A stretch of 64,000 nt of DNA from Oscillospiraceae bacterium (lineage in GTDB: Bacteria; Bacillota; Clostridia; Oscillospirales; Acutalibacteraceae): the NCBI GenBank assembly GCA_022763825.1, contig JALEQX010000002.1:23388-87387 (forward strand), given 5' to 3'. Made by a program: the position numbers and the translations under genes. Each line of letters starts with the position of its first letter. Position 1 is the first letter of the stretch. Under the pieces are notes generated by a model. It did not search any database and had not been told where the DNA came from. It saw only the letters and a program-made list of their open reading frames with translations. Shown here in pieces: positions 32,199 to 45,717 of the stretch.

Positions 32199-32227
32199 TT
32201 GACATCCGATTATTCATGTGATATATT
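32199..32227 (+). promoter_or_regulatory. tRNA operon promoter
   Basis: TTGACA at 32199-32204, a 17-base spacer and TATATT at 32222-32227, about 40 bases before the tRNA-Thr 5' end. It is a near-consensus sigma-A promoter, as expected for stable RNA genes. Confidence 0.85.
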
Positions 32228-32266
32228 ATGTAAGCACTCGGGAGTGATACCCGATAATGACGATCA

Positions 32267-32342
32267 GCTGGTGTAGCTCAGTTGGTAGAGCAGCTGATTT
32301 GTAATCAGCAGGTCGGGGGTTCAAGTCCGTCCACCAGCTCCA
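32267..32342 (+). tRNA. tRNA-Thr (UGU)
   Basis: A 76-base cloverleaf. The acceptor stem GCTGGTG pairs with CACCAGC; the D-loop has AGCTCAGTTGGTAGAG and the T-arm GGTTCAAGTCC. The anticodon TGT at 32300-32302 lies in the loop TTTGTAA. CCA is encoded. Confidence 0.97.
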
Positions 32343-32357
32343 ATTTAATAAAGATAT

Positions 32358-32442
32358 GGAAGAGTTCCCGAGCGGCCAAAGGGAACAGACTGTAAATCTG
32401 TCGTCAGTGACTTCGGTGGTTCGAATCCACCCTCTTCCACCA
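32358..32442 (+). tRNA. tRNA-Tyr (GUA)
   Basis: An 85-base class II tRNA with a long variable arm. The acceptor stem GGAAGAG pairs with CTCTTCC, the anticodon is GTA in CTGTAAA, the T-arm is GGTTCGAATCC, and CCA is encoded. It lies 15 bases after tRNA-Thr in one transcription unit. Confidence 0.96.
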
Positions 32443-32448
32443 TGAAGG

Positions 32449-32485
32449 AATCCTTTTTTGTCGTTAGACAAAAGAGGATTTTTTT
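32449..32485 (+). terminator. Intrinsic terminator of the tRNA unit
   Basis: A stem of about 14 base pairs (AATCCTTTTTTGTC with GACAAAAGAGGATT) and a short loop, followed by a T-run. It lies directly after tRNA-Tyr. Confidence 0.85.
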
Positions 32486-32669
32486 CATCATACGTCCGCA
32501 CGGCAAAGCGGGACGCGTTACTCGTTATAAGCAACGAATACAGTCCGACAGACTTAATCAAAAGTATTCGTTTGACGACAGAATGCAAAGCTGTATGAAA
32601 GAAACGTCATGCAGCTGAATCACTTTCCGATAAAACAGCCTGAACGCTATTTGGAGGCAATAGAATAAC
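32486..32669. other. Gap between the tRNA terminator and the fusion gene
   Basis: No recognised gene. It holds an AACGAATAC/GTATTCGTT inverted repeat (about 32539-32574) and open but unrecognisable short frames. No integrase fragment or tRNA-end direct repeat is evident. Confidence 0.4.
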
Positions 32670-35687: not shown

Positions 35688-36839
35688 TTAATACAAGTAA
35701 TTAACCGTCTTTACAGCCTTGCCGTCTTTTACATAAACTCTTGGTACGCGTCTGGCAACTCGGCACGGGAGTTCGTAATTAAACGAATGTGCGCCCTCGC
35801 TTACTTCTTCCATGGACAACTCATTATCGCCCTGTTTTCCGACAAGAACAACCTCGTCCCCGATTTCACAGTCTATATCGGTTACGTTAACCATAAACTG
35901 GTCCATGCAAACTCTGCCGACTATATCGGCAAATTTACCGTTAATCAGCACTCTGCCGATATTTGAAAGACAGCGGGGATAACCGTCTGCATATCCTACC
36001 GGAATGGTAGCGACGCGCGTAGGTTTCGTCGTCTTAAACGTTCCGCCGTATGAAATTTCCCTACCGGCTTCAAGCGTTTTTATGTGAGAAATTCTCGCTT
36101 TCCAGCTCATGACGGGTTTAATATCGAGCTTTGCGGGGTCAACCTCGTTCGACGGGTAAAGACCGTAGAGTATGATACCCATTCGGCACATGTCAAAAAA
36201 TTCGGTAAAATTCATTATACCCGCACTATTGTTAAGATGCTTAACGGGAATATCAATTCCCCTTTTTTCGAGCATTGAAACAAACTTCTTATATCTGTCT
36301 CTCTGAGCTTCGGCTTTTGATAAATCTGTTTCGTCCGCAGTCGCAAAATGCGAGAACAGTCCCTCCGCCTTAATTTTCGGTAGTTTAGCAATTTCGGCGC
36401 AGATATCCGCGCTTTCCTCGGTTATCTGAAAACCTATACGGCTCATGCCCGTATCGATTGCAAAATGAAAATCCGCAGTTTTTCCCTGTTTTACGGCTTC
36501 GTCGGATAATGCTTTTGCGTCGTCAAACGAAAAAACCGGAATCCTTACATCATATTTTACAACGGTTTCATAATCCCACGGGAAAACTCTGCCCAGCACA
36601 AGAACGGGCGTCTTAATTCCCGCTTTTTTAAGTTCAACGGCCTCCTCAACGCATGCAACTCCGAAAAAATCGCACTTATCATCAAGAAATCTGCCTATCT
36701 CGACCGCACCGTGACCGTATGCGTCGGCTTTTATAACGCCTAAAAGTTTTACGCCCTCGGGAAGTTTTTCCCTTGTATTTTCATAATTATATTCAACGGC
36801 GTCGAGGTCAATTTCTGCGTATGTTCTGAGATTCATCAT
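35688..36839 (-). CDS. alr: Alanine racemase
   Basis: A PLP enzyme that interconverts L- and D-alanine for peptidoglycan. The 383 residues contain the PLP lysine K37 in VIKADAYGHG and the catalytic tyrosine in EISYGGTF, with the C-terminal beta domain RVCMDQFMVNVTD. The start overlaps the pxpA stop (TGATG), so it is the last gene of the dat-DUF4392-pxp operon. That position supplies or removes D-alanine next to a D-amino acid aminotransferase. Confidence 0.95.
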   Translation of the reverse strand: MMNLRTYAEIDLDAVEYNYENTREKLPEGVKLLGVIKADAYGHGAVEIGRFLDDKCDFFGVACVEEAVELKKAGIKTPVLVLGRVFPWDYETVVKYDVRIPVFSFDDAKALSDEAVKQGKTADFHFAIDTGMSRIGFQITEESADICAEIAKLPKIKAEGLFSHFATADETDLSKAEAQRDRYKKFVSMLEKRGIDIPVKHLNNSAGIMNFTEFFDMCRMGIILYGLYPSNEVDPAKLDIKPVMSWKARISHIKTLEAGREISYGGTFKTTKPTRVATIPVGYADGYPRCLSNIGRVLINGKFADIVGRVCMDQFMVNVTDIDCEIGDEVVLVGKQGDNELSMEEVSEGAHSFNYELPCRVARRVPRVYVKDGKAVKTVNYLY

Positions 36840-37591
36840 CCTATGACCTCGGAAAGAGGTGCTGTCTTTATACCGTTTTCTACGAACGCTTTATTGAGCG
36901 CGCGTACAAAGTCGAGAGCCTTTTCTCCGTCGCCGTGAACGCATACCGAATGAGCCTCGATATCAATATCCTCGCCCGTATACGATGTGACCTTGCCCTC
37001 TTTTATCATTCTGATAACACGATTGATAGCTTCATTTTCGTCCGTTATCATAGAGCCTTCAAGCTTTCTCGCCCTCAGCGTTCCGTCGGATTCATACGCT
37101 CTGTCGGCAAAAACCTCGCTTGCGTATTTAATCCCCTTAGACTTTGCCGCTTTAATCATCTCGGAACCGGAAAGAGCAAGCAGAATCAGCGAATCGTCAT
37201 AATCCTTCACCGCGTCGACTATTGCATTTGAAAGCTCCGCGTTTTTTGCCGCCATATTATACATAGCGCCGTGAGGCTTTACATGACTCATTTTAACTCC
37301 GTTCGCCTTTGCAAACGCGCCGAGCGCGCCGAGCTGATACAGCGTGTATTCGTAAACCTGTTCGGGCGTAACGTCCATGTTGGTTCTGCCGAAATTCTCT
37401 CTGTCGGGATATCCCGGGTGCGCACCGAAAGAAACCGAATTCTCTTTGCAAAGTTCAACTGTCTTTTTCATAAGAGCGCAGTCCCCCGCATGAAATCCGC
37501 ACGCAACGTTTGCGCTCGTAATAAGAGGAATTATATCCGCGTCAAATAACGCGCCCTCTCCGAGGTCGGAGTTTAAATCAATCTTATACAT
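36836..37591 (-). CDS. pxpA: 5-Oxoprolinase subunit A (LamB/YcsF)
   Basis: One of three subunits of the bacterial ATP-dependent 5-oxoprolinase, which opens 5-oxoproline to glutamate. The 251 residues have the LamB/YcsF signatures IDLNSDLGEG at the start, SANVACGFHAGD, SFGAHPGYPDRENFGR and HVKPHGAMYN. The ATG at 37591 has AAGGTG upstream; a GTG three codons earlier is part of that site. It is four bases into alr and 20 bases after DUF1445. Confidence 0.95.
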   Translation of the reverse strand: MYKIDLNSDLGEGALFDADIIPLITSANVACGFHAGDCALMKKTVELCKENSVSFGAHPGYPDRENFGRTNMDVTPEQVYEYTLYQLGALGAFAKANGVKMSHVKPHGAMYNMAAKNAELSNAIVDAVKDYDDSLILLALSGSEMIKAAKSKGIKYASEVFADRAYESDGTLRARKLEGSMITDENEAINRVIRMIKEGKVTSYTGEDIDIEAHSVCVHGDGEKALDFVRALNKAFVENGIKTAPLSEVIG

Positions 37592-37611
37592 AAAAATCAC
37601 CTTGTTATATA

Positions 37612-38397
37612 TCAGTATTTAAGACTCGAATTCTTAACGTCCGTAATAAACATGTGTCCCGGCGCGTGAGTTATCGCAATCGGGGGCTTTGTCTGCATTA
37701 TAACGTTTTGCGGTGTAACTCCGCATGCCCAAAATACAGGCGTTTCACCTTCATTAATAGTTACAGAGTCACCGTAGTCAGGCTTTGTAACATCCTTGAT
37801 TCCGATTGACTCGGGATTGCCTATCTGAACGGGTGCTCCGTGTACTCTCGGCATTGCCGCGGTAACATTAACGCTCTTTACGACAAGCTCATCGGGAATC
37901 GGTCGCATGGAAACCACCATATTTCCGTGGAATTTACCCGCGGACTGCAATTTAATATTCGTATTAAACATCGGGACGTTTCTGCCCTCTTGAATATGTC
38001 TTACGGGAATATCGGCTTCCAAAAGTTCGCTTTCGAAACTGAAAGAACATCCGATAAGAAAATATACATAGTCGTCCTGCCAGTATTCGGATATGTCGGT
38101 TACTTCCTTTTCGAGAACTCCGTTTTTCCAAATTCTGTACTTCGGGAAATCCTTGCATATATCTCCGCCGTCAGCCATCGTTTTTATCTCTCTGCTTCCG
38201 ACGTCGCCGACCTCTAAAACCGGGCACGGCTTAGGATTTCTCATACAGAACAGAAGGAAATCAAAAGCGTATTCTTTCGGCAGTATGCATAGATTTGCCT
38301 GCGCATAGCCGTTACACATTCCCGAGGTCTGAAAATCTATTTTACCCTCGCGGATAAGTTTTTTTACCTCCTGAGGGTGCATTAATGAATAATCCAT
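37612..38397 (-). CDS. DUF1445 putative hydro-lyase (YcsI-like; D-glutamate cyclase half)
   Basis: A 261-residue protein of the YcsI/DUF1445 family, which clusters with pxp genes in Bacillus. Signatures include GMCNGYAQANLCILP, FLIGCSFSFESEL, NVPMFNTNI and the closing CGVTPQNVIMQTKPPIAITHAPGHMFITD. In vertebrate D-glutamate cyclase (DGLUCY), a DUF1445 region is joined to a DUF4392 region; here the DUF4392 protein is encoded separately four genes upstream. GGAGAGA precedes the ATG. Activity is inferred. Confidence 0.88.
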   Translation of the reverse strand: MDYSLMHPQEVKKLIREGKIDFQTSGMCNGYAQANLCILPKEYAFDFLLFCMRNPKPCPVLEVGDVGSREIKTMADGGDICKDFPKYRIWKNGVLEKEVTDISEYWQDDYVYFLIGCSFSFESELLEADIPVRHIQEGRNVPMFNTNIKLQSAGKFHGNMVVSMRPIPDELVVKSVNVTAAMPRVHGAPVQIGNPESIGIKDVTKPDYGDSVTINEGETPVFWACGVTPQNVIMQTKPPIAITHAPGHMFITDVKNSSLKY

Positions 38398-38400
38398 AAT

Positions 38401-39324
38401 TTATCTCTCCGCAAGTTTTCTGAAATATTTCTTTTCTTTTTTCGCGGCATTTTCAGCCTGTTTAATGCTTACGATATCGAACATAACTTTATCGTACGGT
38501 CTTGCCTGTGCGAGTTTCGGCAGATCGACGCTTATAACCGTCGCAATCTTCGCATATCCTCCCGTGGTCTGATGGTCAGCCATTAAAATTATAGGCATAC
38601 CGCTTCTGGCTATCTGAATCGAGCCGAACGTAATACCGTCGGACGTAATATCCATTCCGTTTTTACCCCTAAGCGCAATACCGCTGAGGCGTATACCCAT
38701 TCTGTCAAGGTCGGGCGTTACGGTGTAAATCTGTTTTGAAAAGAATTTTAAATCGGTATCCGTAAACATATCGTTCTGCGGACCTAAAACAACTCTGACT
38801 TTTATATGGTCGGGATAATCGCATTTTTCCGCGGTTTTAGTCATGTCAGGTACGTAAGAACATTTGCCGATTTTAATTATATCGCCGGTTTTGAGTTTTC
38901 TGCCCTCATAACCGCCTATTTTTATTTTTAAATTTGTAGACGCGCTTCCCATAACAAGAGGAACGTCAATTCCGCCGGAAACGCCCAAATAACATCTCAT
39001 ACCGGACTTCGCAGCGCCGATTTGAAGAAGCGAACCCGCCTCGGCTTTATACGGTCTGTTATTCTCAATCGGTTTTCCGTTAAGTTTTGGTGAAAAATAT
39101 CCGCCCGAAAGACAAAATATATGAGAATCCGTAAATTTAGCCGTTATGCCGAGCATGGTCATTTCAATGACGGGAGCGGACAAATCATTTCCGCACAGCA
39201 CGTTTACCGTTTTCATTGAATGAGAATCCATTGCACCCGACTGCGTAAATCCGTTTTTCATAACGCCGAAACGTCCTGCATCCTGAACGGTCGAAAGCAT
39301 ACCGCCGTTTATAATTTCAATCAT
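38401..39324 (-). CDS. pxpC: 5-Oxoprolinase subunit C (PxpC, KipA/AHS2)
   Basis: A 307-residue AHS2-domain protein: it starts MIEIINGGMLSTVQDAGR, then NGFTQSGAMDSHS and the conserved VVLGPQNDMF and MADHQTTGGYAKIA segments. With PxpA and PxpB it forms 5-oxoprolinase in bacteria; the B/C pair shares ancestry with urea amidolyase and Kip regulators. The start overlaps the pxpB stop. Confidence 0.94.
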   Translation of the reverse strand: MIEIINGGMLSTVQDAGRFGVMKNGFTQSGAMDSHSMKTVNVLCGNDLSAPVIEMTMLGITAKFTDSHIFCLSGGYFSPKLNGKPIENNRPYKAEAGSLLQIGAAKSGMRCYLGVSGGIDVPLVMGSASTNLKIKIGGYEGRKLKTGDIIKIGKCSYVPDMTKTAEKCDYPDHIKVRVVLGPQNDMFTDTDLKFFSKQIYTVTPDLDRMGIRLSGIALRGKNGMDITSDGITFGSIQIARSGMPIILMADHQTTGGYAKIATVISVDLPKLAQARPYDKVMFDIVSIKQAENAAKKEKKYFRKLAER

Positions 39325-40046
39325 AAGCGAGCCTCCCGGATTTCAGGTTTATACGTTCCGTCAAGAACCTGTTTTTCTATCTCGTCAAATTCTTTACGCG
39401 TTACAGAGCAGAACTTTATATAATCTCCCGCATTGTAGAGAATGGGATTCTCCTTCGATGAATCATACACAAGAACAGGCGTTTTGCCTATAAGCTGCCA
39501 GCCTCCGGGCGAAGCGATAGGGTAAATACCCGTCTGTTCTCCGCCGATACCTACAGCGCCTTTGAAAATCTCAAGTCTCGGGCTTTTAAGTCTCGGAGTT
39601 GCAAGACGTTTATCCATACCGCCGAGATATGCAAAACCGGGAAGAAATCCGAGCATATATATTAGATAAGGTTTTGATGTATGAAGTGAAATAACCTCAT
39701 CGCGTGTAAGCCCCGTATGAGAGCATACATTGTCCATATCGGGAGAAAACTCACCGTCATAACATACGGGAATATCGAAAATTCTGACGAGAGAGTCACC
39801 CTTTGCGGAAATATTTTCAATAAGCCCGGAAAGCTTCTTTTTAAGATTTTTTGACGAAATAACGGTACAGTCGTACAGAACCGTCAGCGAGGCAAATGTC
39901 GGTATCGTTTCAATAACGCCTTCGATATTTGCCTGTTCGGTAAGTGAAGCCAATGCGGTAACATACCCGTTGATTTCTTTGCTTATTTCCTTTTCAAACT
40001 GAACGGTCAGTGCTGAATCTCCGTTCTGAAGAAATAAGTATTTCAT
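39321..40046 (-). CDS. pxpB: 5-Oxoprolinase subunit B (PxpB, KipI/AHS1)
   Basis: A 241-residue AHS1-domain protein with the family core IPVCYDGEFSPD, YLIYMLGFLPGFAYLGGMD, TPRLKSPRLEIFKGAVGIGGEQTGIYPIASPGGWQLIGKTPV. The ATG at 40046 overlaps the DUF4392 stop (ATGA). An ATG 13 codons earlier lies inside the upstream gene. AAAGGA is 11 bases away, suggesting coupling. Confidence 0.94.
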   Translation of the reverse strand: MKYLFLQNGDSALTVQFEKEISKEINGYVTALASLTEQANIEGVIETIPTFASLTVLYDCTVISSKNLKKKLSGLIENISAKGDSLVRIFDIPVCYDGEFSPDMDNVCSHTGLTRDEVISLHTSKPYLIYMLGFLPGFAYLGGMDKRLATPRLKSPRLEIFKGAVGIGGEQTGIYPIASPGGWQLIGKTPVLVYDSSKENPILYNAGDYIKFCSVTRKEFDEIEKQVLDGTYKPEIREARL

Positions 40047-41104
40047 TTTGAGAAAAATCCTTTCTTGAGCGTGTTGGCAAACCAAGCCTCTGTTTTATCC
40101 TCGACCGTGGGCGGATATTCGATAAGAGCCTTCATCATTGAGATAAGAGGAAGATTTATATTCTTTCCGAATCCGTCTATAAACGGTCTCGGTTCGCCGT
40201 ACATGTCGAGCATACCTGCGCCCGCCGCGGCGTCCATAGCGGCAGCCTGATCATCAACCGAATGGAAAAGTTCGGGTTTGCCGAGCATAAAAGCCGTCGC
40301 AGCCATCATAGCGTCGCATCCCCAGTCGGAGCATGTGGCGGTGATTATGTTATCCGTCGCGGTATCGGTAAGAATTCCGCAGCCTGTACCCGCTTTGCAT
40401 CCTCCCATTTCGGCATAGGGAATATATTTTCTGATATGCTCCCCTATCGCATTCATGCCTATCTCGTTTCCGAGGTCGCCTATGGATATATTAAAAATAC
40501 CCGCGTCCTGACACTTTTTGAATAAAACATCGTACTTCGGCTCAACTTCTGTCGTATTAACGCCTACCGCGTTATGATAATATCCGTTTTCGTTTCTGCC
40601 GGGAGCCTCATTCGTAATAATAGCGCAGGGCTTGCCGTGAGAGAGGATTTCGTCCGCCTGTTTTTCCGCTTCGTCAAAATCCTTTGTAAATTCAACTACG
40701 CAAACGGTGTTGTCCGGAATATTATCAATATCTTCCGTTATCTTGAACGAAAGAACGTTGCTCATAGCCTTAATTCCTTTTTTACACTGAGAGGGAACGA
40801 TCATAACGGGCTTTGCACCGAAAGCTCTCATAAGAAAACGAGCAAAAATCGTCGAAGAAACAATACCGTCCGTCTCCGCCTCATTCCAAGGAAGAAGGAC
40901 AAATCCAGTTAAAATAAATACCTTTTCGCCTTTTTTTACATTTTTAATAAGTCCTCTGGCGGCGTTAATGCTGAGCGGTTCGCCGACCTTTGCCCTTGAA
41001 CCCTCATAAAGTATACGACAGACTCCGTATCCTCTCGGGTCAAGATTCATGAGCGTGTCAAGGTCGTCGCCTATATTAAGAAGAGTTAATTCGTCTCTGT
41101 TCAT
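40043..41104 (-). CDS. DUF4392 protein (D-glutamate cyclase C-terminal-domain family)
   Basis: A 353-residue cytosolic protein. It matches DUF4392, the C-terminal half of mitochondrial D-glutamate cyclase: FILTGFVLLPWNEAETDGI, EAPGRNENGYYHNAVG, IGDLGNEIGMNAIG and CSDWGCDAMMAATAFML. The vertebrate enzyme reversibly dehydrates D-glutamate to 5-oxo-D-proline. Bacterial DUF4392 proteins next to pxp genes have been little studied, so the activity is inferred. GGGGGA precedes the ATG; it is 27 bases after the aminotransferase gene. Confidence 0.87.
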   Translation of the reverse strand: MNRDELTLLNIGDDLDTLMNLDPRGYGVCRILYEGSRAKVGEPLSINAARGLIKNVKKGEKVFILTGFVLLPWNEAETDGIVSSTIFARFLMRAFGAKPVMIVPSQCKKGIKAMSNVLSFKITEDIDNIPDNTVCVVEFTKDFDEAEKQADEILSHGKPCAIITNEAPGRNENGYYHNAVGVNTTEVEPKYDVLFKKCQDAGIFNISIGDLGNEIGMNAIGEHIRKYIPYAEMGGCKAGTGCGILTDTATDNIITATCSDWGCDAMMAATAFMLGKPELFHSVDDQAAAMDAAAGAGMLDMYGEPRPFIDGFGKNINLPLISMMKALIEYPPTVEDKTEAWFANTLKKGFFSK

Positions 41105-41131
41105 TTCAAATTCCCCCTGTAAATTTATTAA

Positions 41132-41977
41132 TTACTCTGCCGCGCACTGTGCTTCAAAGTCGGCAACAAGAGCGTCCTGTATTTTTTTAAGCATTTCGGG
41201 AGCTTTTCCGCCTACAGGTTTACCGTCTACGGTCTTAACGGGTATGCAGAATGATCCGGTAGAATGAACGATAACCTCGTCGGCATTCATAAGCTCGTCA
41301 AGCGTGTAATCTCTCTCCTCTACGCCGTAGCCGAGCTTTTCGGCAAACGCAAGAAGTCTGATACGCGCGGTACCGGGGAGAACCTTATCGTCAAGCGGAT
41401 GGGAGATGACCTTGCCGTCCTTAAAAATCGAGCAGTTTGAATGTGCGCACTCGGTTACGATATCTCCTCTGTGGAATATAGCTTCCTTGCATCCGGCTCT
41501 GTCGGCTGCGGTAGCGGCAAGACATGAGGGAATAAGGTTAAGAGTTTTGCAGTTGCAGTAGAAGAATCTCTTGTCTTCATATGTAATAACGTCAATAGGT
41601 TTATAAGTATCCGCGACATGACTGGGCGTAAGAGTAATCCACAGATTGCCGACCATATCCTTATCATATATATGACCTCTCAATCCGCTTCCTCTGGTAA
41701 CCTGCATATAAACGAACTGGTCGCCGTCGTCAACCTTCTTTACAAGGTCTCTCAAAAGTTTATCGAGTTCATCTCTCTCGATAGGCATATTTATATCAAG
41801 AAGTTTTGCGCTGTTATAGAATCTGTTAAGGTGTGCGTCCATGTCGAACACGACGTGATTATGTGCATATGTTGCGTCGTAAATTCCGTCGCCGAACCAG
41901 CATACTCTGTCAAGCATGGGAATAGACATTTTTTCGATTTCATCATATTTACCGTTGTAGTAGCCTAAGTTCTTCAT
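41132..41977 (-). CDS. dat: D-amino acid aminotransferase (class IV)
   Basis: A fold-type IV PLP transaminase of 281 residues, close in layout to Bacillus D-amino acid transaminase. It has RVCWFGDGIYD near the start, the PLP lysine K144 in CKTLNLIPS (Bacillus: IKSLNLLGA), the glutamate in TECAHSN, and a C-terminal STGSFCIPV segment. It would convert D-alanine and 2-oxoglutarate to pyruvate and D-glutamate. It leads the operon with GAGG 9 bases before the ATG. The homologous branched-chain and ADC-lyase enzymes fit less well. Confidence 0.9.
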   Translation of the reverse strand: MKNLGYYNGKYDEIEKMSIPMLDRVCWFGDGIYDATYAHNHVVFDMDAHLNRFYNSAKLLDINMPIERDELDKLLRDLVKKVDDGDQFVYMQVTRGSGLRGHIYDKDMVGNLWITLTPSHVADTYKPIDVITYEDKRFFYCNCKTLNLIPSCLAATAADRAGCKEAIFHRGDIVTECAHSNCSIFKDGKVISHPLDDKVLPGTARIRLLAFAEKLGYGVEERDYTLDELMNADEVIVHSTGSFCIPVKTVDGKPVGGKAPEMLKKIQDALVADFEAQCAAE

Positions 41978-41989
41978 TACAAAATAACC

Positions 41990-42037
41990 TCACATAAAAA
42001 AATAAGCAATAAGGCACCCTTGTGCGAACCCCATTGC
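41990..42037 (-). promoter_or_regulatory. Leader hairpin with U-run before dat, candidate attenuator
   Basis: On the transcript, an 8-base-pair stem (GCAAUGGG with CUUAUUGC, two G-U pairs) encloses a second GCAC/GUGC stem; seven U residues follow. The hairpin is at 42006-42037 and the U-run at 41996-42002, between a promoter at 42048-42076 and the dat start. A competing AUUG-GAG-CAAU pairing is possible just before it. The same DNA has a 23-codon hydrophobic frame (41990-42061) beginning MSIIMAIGAM, without an obvious SD. Confidence 0.5.
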
Positions 42038-42047
42038 TCCAATCGCC

Positions 42048-42076
42048 ATTATAATACTCATTGTCAAAAAAGTAAA
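42048..42076 (-). promoter_or_regulatory. dat operon promoter
   Basis: On the minus strand, TTTACT at 42076-42071, a 17-base spacer and TATAAT at 42053-42048. The predicted start near 42041 puts the terminator-like hairpin at the very beginning of the transcript. Confidence 0.6.
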
Positions 42077-44566: not shown

Positions 44567-45717
44567 ATGATAATTTCAAATACTGTAAAATATGCAGGCG
44601 TCAACGATCATAACATCGATTTATTCGAGGGTCAGTATGTCGTACCCAACGGAATGGCATACAACTCATATGTAATACTTGACGATAAAATCGCAGTTAC
44701 CGACACAGTCGACGCTTCTTTTAAAGATGAATGGCTTAATAATATTAAAAATATACTTGACGGCAGAAAGCCGGATTATCTTATCGTTCATCACATGGAA
44801 CCCGATCATTCCGGTAATATTGAAGCGTTTATGAACGAATATCCCGAGGCGGTAATCGTTTCATCAGCTAAGGCTTTTGTTATGATGAATCAGTTTTCGG
44901 CAGGGATTACAGCGACAGACGAATTGTTGTCGGAGAATCCGATAAACTCTCCCTCGGAAATCACGAGCTTACATTCATAACGGCTCCCATGGTTCACTGG
45001 CCGGAGGTTATCGTTTCTTATGATTCGCTTGATAAGATTCTTTTCTCCGCGGACGGATTCGGCAAATTCGGTTCACTCGATACAGAGGAGGACTGGGCAT
45101 GCGAAGCGAGAAGATACTACTTCGGCATAGTCGGAAAATACGGTGCGCAGGTTCAGACACTTCTCAAAAAAGTCTCCGCACTCGAAATAAAAACGATATG
45201 CCCGCTTCACGGTCCCGTTTTAAACGACAATCTCGGTTATTATCTCGGGCTTTACAATACATGGTCGTCCTATGAACCCGAATCCGACGGAGTATTCATC
45301 GCCTACTGCTCCGTGTACGGAAATACAGAAAAAGCCGCTCTTGCGTTGGCAGCAAAACTTAAAGAAAAAGGATGTAAAAAAGTCGTCACATCAGACCTTG
45401 CACGTTCCGACAATGCGGAAAACGTTGAGGACGCATTCAGATATTCAAAACTCGTACTCGCTTCCCCGACATACAACGCCGACGTTTTCCCGTTTATGAA
45501 AACATTTATTGAGTCTCTGACAGAACGCGGATACAGAAACAGGACAATCGGCATTATAGAAAACGGCTCGTGGGCTCCCGTCGCGGAAAAAGTAATGAGA
45601 ACAATGTTTGACAAGTCAAAAGACATTACATTTGCAGAGACTGTCGTTACAGTAAAATCCGCATTAAATTCGGAAAGCTTAAACGCAATTGAAGCTCTTG
45701 CCGAAGAATTAAAATAA
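44567..45717 (+). pseudogene. A-type flavodiiron protein (FprA/NorV-like) with a one-base frameshift
   Basis: Two adjacent frames together encode one flavodiiron protein, which reduces oxygen or nitric oxide in anaerobes. Frame 1 (44567-44920, 118 codons) ends in the beta-lactamase-like diiron domain with HHMEPDHSG. Frame 2 continues from 44920 as RIVVGESDKLSLG, then MVHWPEV, SADGFGKFG, CPLHGP and the flavodoxin loop YCSVYGNTEKAA. Both diiron ligand sets and the FMN domain are present (383 residues in all). One C is missing in GAC-CGA at 44920. No slippery heptamer is seen. The lesion may be real or a sequencing error. Confidence 0.9.

Follow-up and report, generated by a model that had tools for sequence, protein, structure and literature searches.

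A conserved clostridial operon that may supply D-alanine and D-glutamate and return D-glutamate to L-glutamate through 5-oxoproline

A route through alanine racemase (Alr) and D-amino-acid transaminase (Dat) can supply D-glutamate (D-Glu) in place of the glutamate racemase MurI. Dat is also stated to be an alternative source of D-Glu in the published literature (PMC5885031). In vertebrates, a protein that fuses a DUF1445 and a DUF4392 domain (C14orf159; 9030617O03Rik in the mouse) makes 5-oxo-D-proline from D-Glu (PMC5339696), and six split homologues of the human cyclase have been counted in gut bacteria (PMC11580864). In Bacillus subtilis, the operon of the 5-oxoprolinase genes pxpABC also has ycsI and encodes an importer demonstrated to transport Mn (PMC10448178), and sequential action of the DUF1445 and DUF4392 domains has been suggested earlier (PMC5132392). 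The vertebrate fusion and its activity, the split gut homologues, and the company of pxpABC with ycsI are known already. We describe an operon in which genes of all these systems stand together. It lies at 35688..42076 of a 64,000-nucleotide stretch, called the window here, from an Oscillospiraceae bacterium (family Acutalibacteraceae; assembly GCA_022763825.1, contig JALEQX010000002.1, positions 23,388 to 87,387 of the forward strand).

The original prediction, made from the letters of the window, was of seven leftward genes in one tight operon, and open reading frames (ORFs) together with Pfam and NCBIfam matches confirm it. All seven are intact on the minus strand. Transcription begins with dat (41132..41977; 281 residues; PF01063) and the long form of DUF4392, or GLUCM-like_C (40043..41104; 353 residues; PF14336 at 291 bits, cut-off 28). 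The 5-oxoprolinase subunit B gene pxpB follows (39321..40046; TIGR00370 at 217 bits, cut-off 146), and then pxpC, a carboxyltransferase subdomain A/B protein of the 5-oxoprolinase subunit C family (38401..39324; PF02626 at 300 bits, TIGR00724 at 305, cut-off 230). DUF1445, also labelled D-Glu_cyclase or putative hydro-lyase (37612..38397; PF07286 at 231 bits, NF003969 at 419, cut-off 324), precedes the LamB/YcsF-type subunit A gene pxpA (36836..37600, with an alternative ATG start at 37591; PF03746, NF003814 at 329 bits, cut-off 226). The last gene is alr (35688..36839), whose product has both Pfam domains and scores 381 bits with TIGR00492 (cut-off 168). Gaps between the genes do not exceed 27 bases (27 at dat/DUF4392, 3 at pxpC/DUF1445, 11 at DUF1445/pxpA), and three junctions overlap by four bases, namely DUF4392/pxpB, pxpB/pxpC, and pxpA/alr. 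The first of these overlaps presumes that pxpB starts at the internal ATG 40046, the start we infer from the overlap; the listed ORF begins at TTG 40085.

Every family label given earlier was matched, two of them in softer form. PxpC, at 251 bits, is below the cut-off of 500 of the equivalog model NF045499, as are three other clostridial PxpC proteins at 226, 258, and 260, and Dat, which falls below the NCBIfam cut-off for D-amino-acid transaminases, has 204.7 bits against the 277.45 of the TIGR01121 equivalog. The TIGR01121 cut-off is passed in none of 147 genomes sampled from the order, and an E-value of 1e-40 is reached in 22 of them. The nearest relatives of Dat in the PDB are Bacillus-type D-amino-acid transaminases (1daa/3lqs). 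Its carboxylate trap (Y33, R100, H102) and K144, which we take to be the catalytic lysine, are kept in all 75 aligned rows, the window's included. The canonical trap is Y31/R98/H100, and a characterised transaminase of this kind uses D-alanine (D-Ala) with 2-oxoglutarate and D-Glu with pyruvate (PMC10003956).

The locus resembles each of the described systems in part. It has the two domains of the vertebrate D-glutamate cyclase (PF07286 and PF14336 both over cut-off) and the same predicted substrate, which upholds the earlier claim of a split counterpart; unlike the fusion, they are here two genes that share their operon with dat, alr, and pxpABC. The vertebrate enzyme yields 5-oxo-D-proline, for which no route to L-glutamate (L-Glu) is shown. 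As in the B. subtilis unit (with ycsG and ycsI) and the Corynebacterium glutamicum pxpTABC unit, PxpA, PxpB, and a PxpC-family protein are encoded together, and the link to 5-oxoprolinase that had been drawn is supported; PxpA and PxpB score over their cut-offs, PxpC over that of TIGR00724 but below that of NF045499. The B. subtilis unit also shares DUF1445, which we take ycsI to be; a control search found PF07286 in B. subtilis. Those units differ in that there is no NRAMP gene here and dat, DUF4392, and alr are added. Like the Alr/Dat route, the operon has an Alr and a Dat with the canonical trap, in a genome with no MurI over cut-off, but it shares them with a presumed exit from D-Glu to 5-oxoproline and L-Glu.

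On balance, we lean towards a reading in which the operon makes both D-Ala and D-Glu and gives D-Glu an exit through 5-oxoproline to L-Glu, each reaction and its direction being what we infer from the genes. Alr would convert L-alanine (L-Ala) to D-Ala, and Dat would use D-Ala and 2-oxoglutarate to form D-Glu and pyruvate. The DUF4392/DUF1445 pair would cyclise D-Glu to 5-oxoproline, which PxpABC would open to L-Glu with adenosine triphosphate (ATP). In the most likely division of labour, DUF4392 would be a metal-dependent cyclase acting on the D-amino acid and DUF1445 would act on the lactam, where it may invert 5-oxo-D-proline and so provide the form that PxpABC requires. The original prediction was of D-Glu disposal or D/L balance; the exit is kept, although in this genome the operon is probably not for disposal only and would also supply D-Ala and D-Glu. 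To our knowledge, PxpABC is known for the L form of 5-oxoproline only, and a term search of the text of the C. glutamicum paper found no enantiomer preference for its PxpABC. The gap between a D-form product and an L-form substrate, pointed out earlier, is real; the fused mammalian enzyme gives 5-oxo-D-proline (PMC5339696). A missing inversion step need not lie outside the operon, DUF1445 being an unproven candidate.

The supply half of this reading draws on the distribution of MurI and Alr. The window genome, estimated as 95.94% complete, contains a single Ala_racemase_C (PF00842) match, the operon alr, and no MurI at cut-off; its one weak match, at 42.8 against 146.65 bits, belongs to the cysteate/aspartate racemase family. 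MurI is over cut-off in all nine other sampled members of the window's family. A scan for long-form DUF4392 across the contigs of 84,980 species found 219 relatives, the best 80 of which were kept, and 44 of these 80 cluster genomes, a hand-picked, non-random set with mostly long flanks that omits other long loci and was picked before any of its MurI results were known, were examined for MurI and Alr. MurI is over cut-off in 24 of the 44. Genomes in which alr closes the cluster (alr-ending genomes) are without it in 14 of 16 cases, and those with other dat layouts in 2 of 23, in a comparison whose classes are set by gene order alone but were chosen with the MurI results in view, and whose p-values ignore relatedness. 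By class, MurI is present in 2/16 alr-ending genomes, 6/6 with alr inside the cluster (the Clostridium layout), 15/17 with dat and no alr, and 1/5 without dat. Two of the 16 clusters are incomplete, L062 being without a called pxpC and L073 without DUF1445 and pxpA; with complete alr-ending clusters, 12 of 14 genomes are without MurI. The operon alr is the best Alr match in all 14 MurI-less alr-ending genomes and the sole match in 13. In the order sample, drawn after this comparison, MurI is missing in four of five genomes with dat beside DUF4392, the window genome among them, and in 24 of 142 others; here G463 is scored as missing MurI from its absence in the match list, and L146 and L148 are cut by contig ends.

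Because the operon carries the only Alr found, no MurI is over cut-off, and alr-ending clusters track the absence of MurI, the operon is probably the source of both peptidoglycan D-amino acids in the window genome and would also give D-Glu an exit. Here and in most alr-ending genomes, D-Glu appears to come from Dat instead of MurI, which, together with an operon Alr that is the only one found, would make the operon a housekeeping D-amino-acid locus. The simplest reading, which is not proof, has Dat taking the place of MurI where the operon also came to hold the sole alr. Where MurI is kept, as in Clostridium and most Lachnospiraceae, the module is more likely a utilisation unit for D-Glu or 5-oxoproline.

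A number of observations weigh against this account. The absence of MurI is unspecific, as the 24 order genomes that lack it over cut-off without a dat–DUF4392 pair indicate; three of these are listed with Dat, one of which also has a piece of MurI where a contig stops. G463 is without MurI, yet no alr is seen in its cluster, and two of the 16 alr-ending genomes do carry MurI. A cysteate/aspartate-type racemase is present in the window genome, and DapF can serve as a glutamate racemase elsewhere (PMC5885031). The grouping behind the MurI comparison was chosen after the results were seen, the metagenome-assembled genomes are incomplete, and the genomes are phylogenetically non-independent. Dat is reversible and could remove D-Glu itself, so a second exit is not strictly required. 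Some loci depart from the set: L083, L087, and L094 carry DUF4392 alone, no dat is seen in L079, L089, L091, and L096, L073 is without DUF1445 and pxpA, and no pxp gene is seen in L103 and L055. The Thermococcus DUF4392 relative TON_0340 has been published as a probable Mn-dependent phosphatase (PMC5132392). Finally, neither domain is known to invert 5-oxo-D-proline, since this is the form that the mammalian fusion, with both domains, yields (PMC5339696).

The Asp/Glu-racemase-like gene of the window genome was considered as a hidden MurI and rejected as a general explanation. It scores over the cut-offs of CuyB, a cysteate-racemase model, and TIGR00035 and not over that of glutamate racemase, and nine of the 14 MurI-less alr-ending genomes have no match to the glutamate racemase model at E 0.001. 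It could act as a glutamate racemase in the window genome.

The gene set extends well beyond this genome. Among the 80 loci, 53 have the at least 1.3 kb upstream and at least 5.2 kb downstream by which they can be judged, and these hold dat in 50, DUF1445 in 50, pxpB in 50, pxpC in 49, pxpA in 49, and alr in 31. The window's order is the main layout (23/53), followed by the same order without alr (16/53) and by dat–DUF4392–DUF1445–pxpA–alr–pxpB–pxpC (6/53, mostly in records named Clostridium). Records named Clostridium, Lachnospiraceae, and Oscillospiraceae, as well as others, contain the set, so its conservation reaches past close relatives, without which the original prediction would have been refuted, and the idea of a local oddity is rejected, the set being conserved in many Clostridia. 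PF14336 itself is patchy, with matches in 12 of 291 genomes sampled from the class (11 over cut-off), 7 of 147 from the order, and none of the nine other family members, so the close relatives sampled are without the set. One locus, L021, has a short DUF4392 with DUF1445 and pxpABC and is without dat or alr, so DUF4392–DUF1445–PxpABC may be the core of the cluster.

Two kinds of neighbour vary among these loci. In L077, which has the third layout, genes for a biotin carrier protein and then a biotin carboxylase follow the cluster, and the genes in that position in L014 and L078 are close to these in length, the one feature by which they are judged. A biotin-dependent form of ring opening is suggested by L077:13838-15651 and by L162, L163, and L167, where a biotin carrier gene, a biotin carboxylase gene, or both adjoin pxpBC. 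In L060, from Lachnospiraceae, genes for a branched-chain-type ABC importer and a cytidylate-kinase-like gene precede the operon and a LytTR/GHKL pair follows it.

The importer genes bear on a reading in which the operon runs the other way, to use 5-oxo-D-proline: PxpABC would take both enantiomers and form D-Glu, Dat would turn this into 2-oxoglutarate and D-Ala, and Alr would give L-Ala. Its stereochemistry closes with known enzyme types, since a PxpABC that accepts both enantiomers needs no 5-oxoproline racemase, and an importer before dat, as in L060 and perhaps in several other Lachnospiraceae-type loci with genes of similar size there (sizes only), counts in its favour. We regard it as improbable: with a D-Glu cyclase encoded alongside, a futile ATP cycle would result, the absence of MurI with alr-ending clusters points to D-Glu supply, and PxpABC is not known to act on the D form.

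Co-occurrence and co-evolution count in favour of the reading that we prefer. The original prediction had proposed a survey of co-occurrence across Clostridia, and co-occurrence is found: in the class sample, DUF1445 is present in 10 of the 12 DUF4392-bearing genomes against 9 of the 279 others (19/291 in total), and dat and pxpABC are present in most judgeable loci. In five of the 10 genomes with both, DUF4392 and DUF1445 are on different contigs. Where dat and DUF4392 are both present among the 80 loci, they lie within 150 bases of each other in 68 of 71. A tree built from 82 DUF1445 proteins gathers those of the long-form clusters into a single group of 68 (support 100/97; 60 labelled dat and 8 labelled DUF4392, one short-form copy, L150, included), although the bootstrap is unsettled and the dat label alone needs seven changes. 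Copies from loci without DUF4392 are outside it, the clostridial ones among them, as are those of the short-form L021 and the plasmid locus L153. The DUF4392, DUF1445, pxpA, and dat genes have pairwise-distance correlations of 0.54 to 0.81, and pxpB and pxpC of 0.78 with each other. The window was represented in the tree and distance tables by its relative L026, its own proteins not being rows.

These results also bear on a looser view, in which Alr and Dat work for peptidoglycan, spontaneous 5-oxoproline is repaired by PxpABC and DUF1445, and glutamate is the sole common thread. A separate unit of pxpABC, DUF1445, and an NRAMP transporter without dat does exist, the B. subtilis operon pairs pxpABC with ycsI and a Mn importer (PMC10448178), and the distances of pxpB and pxpC correlate with those of the other genes at only 0.28 to 0.42. 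The tight spacing of dat and DUF4392, the separate DUF1445 group of the clusters, and the co-occurrence of DUF4392 and DUF1445 even on different contigs speak against such a loose cluster, and we consider it unlikely. As the pxpB and pxpC distances track the other genes poorly, pxpBC has probably been exchanged, with the ring-opening function kept.

The partners of DUF1445 and DUF4392 elsewhere hint at what each domain may do. At clostridial DUF1445 loci without a linked DUF4392, pxpA, pxpB, and pxpC are present in 7 of 14 and dat is seen in none of the 14; in two of the seven (L132 and L142), the genome has DUF4392 elsewhere. Six of the seven have a gene of 399-418 residues, in each case an NRAMP transporter. 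Plasmid records with a match were opened for 8 of 60 DUF4392 and 6 of 240 DUF1445 matches. Plasmids of Lactiplantibacillus, Haematobacter, and Shinella carry units similar to these NRAMP-bearing ones, and Azospirillum has DUF1445 and pxpABC beside an ABC importer with no NRAMP gene shown; the records of Terrarubrum and Mycetohabitans show no pxp gene in the vicinity of DUF1445. The proteobacterial plasmid DUF4392 genes adjoin genes annotated as selenocysteine synthase, class V aminotransferase, or threonine/serine dehydratase, with no pxp gene shown near them, and in two records no amino-acid-enzyme gene of those types is adjacent. The single 'selenocysteine synthase' checked has no Pfam match over cut-off, so its pyridoxal-phosphate nature rests on annotation. 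In Sinorhizobium meliloti Rm41, DUF4392 and DUF1445 are less than 5 kb apart. From context and these 14 opened matches, DUF4392 seems to accompany amino-acid enzymes, for the most part with neither DUF1445 nor PxpABC near it, and DUF1445 the lactam enzyme, patterns that hint at an amino acid as the substrate of the former and a lactam as that of the latter.

A second, different DUF4392 context is found on Sinorhizobium, Paraburkholderia, and Bradyrhizobium plasmids (L154, L156, and L160), where an annotated selenocysteine synthase gene stands between two DUF4392 genes and the neighbourhood also holds genes for aldehyde dehydrogenase and amino-acid ABC transporters. Within the window's order, L151 (G385:C62) has three tandem short DUF4392 genes, and L149:6625-7554 (G463) is a creatininase-family gene between DUF4392 and pxpB. 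No phage copies of DUF4392 were found.

Perhaps DUF1445 is the missing 5-oxoproline racemase, and if it did invert 5-oxoproline, the stereochemistry would close. Its relatives in the PDB are 3db9 and 2pif, and all 67 aligned rows, like both of these structures, have C58, C117, and C225, candidate catalytic residues of such a putative enzyme. A complete MurI-independent route, in which DUF4392 cyclises D-Glu, DUF1445 inverts 5-oxo-D-proline, and PxpABC opens 5-oxo-L-proline, is a tentative idea that we hold to be rather unlikely as a whole. If true, the lactam route would make the conversion of D-Glu to L-Glu irreversible through ATP, and a racemase DUF1445 would account for the loci in Bacilli, Clostridia, and Proteobacteria where it is paired with PxpABC and no D-Glu enzyme is seen beside it.

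For DUF4392, the six metal-ligand acids E77, D79, E166, D210, E214, and D310 are kept in 83 of 83 long-form rows, and the metal site is invariant across long and short forms. These acids align with those of TON_0340 (PDB 5gl4), of which E115, D157, E161, and D246 were placed by number and E59 and D61 by the ETDG motif. The window protein differs from TON_0340 in being a 353-residue long form with extra segments, and TON_0340 is called a probable phosphatase. Another reading is that DUF4392 is a metal-dependent phosphatase or hydrolase of some other small molecule and that the cyclase label does not apply to the bacterial long form. Weak Mn-dependent phosphatase activity is reported for TON_0340 (PMC5132392), DUF4392 adjoins varied other amino-acid genes in Proteobacteria, and the window protein is only 21-27% identical to four short-type forms against 47-49% to three other long ones. 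The reported activity is very low and spread over several phosphate compounds (PMC5132392), the vertebrate protein with the domain is a D-Glu cyclase (PMC5339696), and the metal site does not vary between the forms, which leaves the phosphatase explanation very unlikely in our judgement. We found no literature linking D-glutamate cyclase with manganese.

A further segment of the long form, residues 236-242 (40379-40399, minus strand), is absent from the aligned short-type forms. It has three cysteines in 57 of 83 rows; C236 is invariant, and the second cysteine is alanine in the window and 23 other rows. An extra metal site here is possible.

Downstream of the operon is a convergent NAD synthase gene and upstream a divergent gene for a C39-like peptidase. 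The best promoter-like site upstream of dat, TTTACT-17-TATAAT (42048..42076, minus strand; a consensus match only), reaches exactly to the right-hand limit of the region first marked out, 42076; such sites are not enriched here (12 observed against 13.4 in shuffles), terminator-like sites are uninformative (8 against 6.8), and no structured RNA near the operon is above the gathering threshold. Elsewhere in the window, two adjoining plus-strand ORFs at 44567-45717 look like pieces of one gene that is split in this assembly: a single flavorubredoxin-type flavodiiron protein model matches them (137 and 242 residues) over successive stretches, with each score short of the cut-off. A 120-residue minus-strand ORF at 32226-32588 is antisense to tRNA-Thr and tRNA-Tyr and is probably not a gene.

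Among the literature matches listed, we found no description of dat or alr with DUF4392 or pxpABC, none of the operon's conservation in Clostridia or of a tie to MurI absence, and no bacterial DUF1445 or DUF4392 with an assigned reaction. New here are the operon alr as the only Ala_racemase_C match in its genome and the tracking of MurI absence by alr-ending clusters. DUF1445 and DUF4392 are widespread, have relatives with solved structures, and are fused in the human enzyme, and the compact clostridial operon makes their substrates, partners, and direction testable in one unit. It also gives a candidate answer to the fate of 5-oxo-D-proline. Together, these findings suggest that some Clostridia make the D-Glu and D-Ala of their peptidoglycan from one operon, without MurI.

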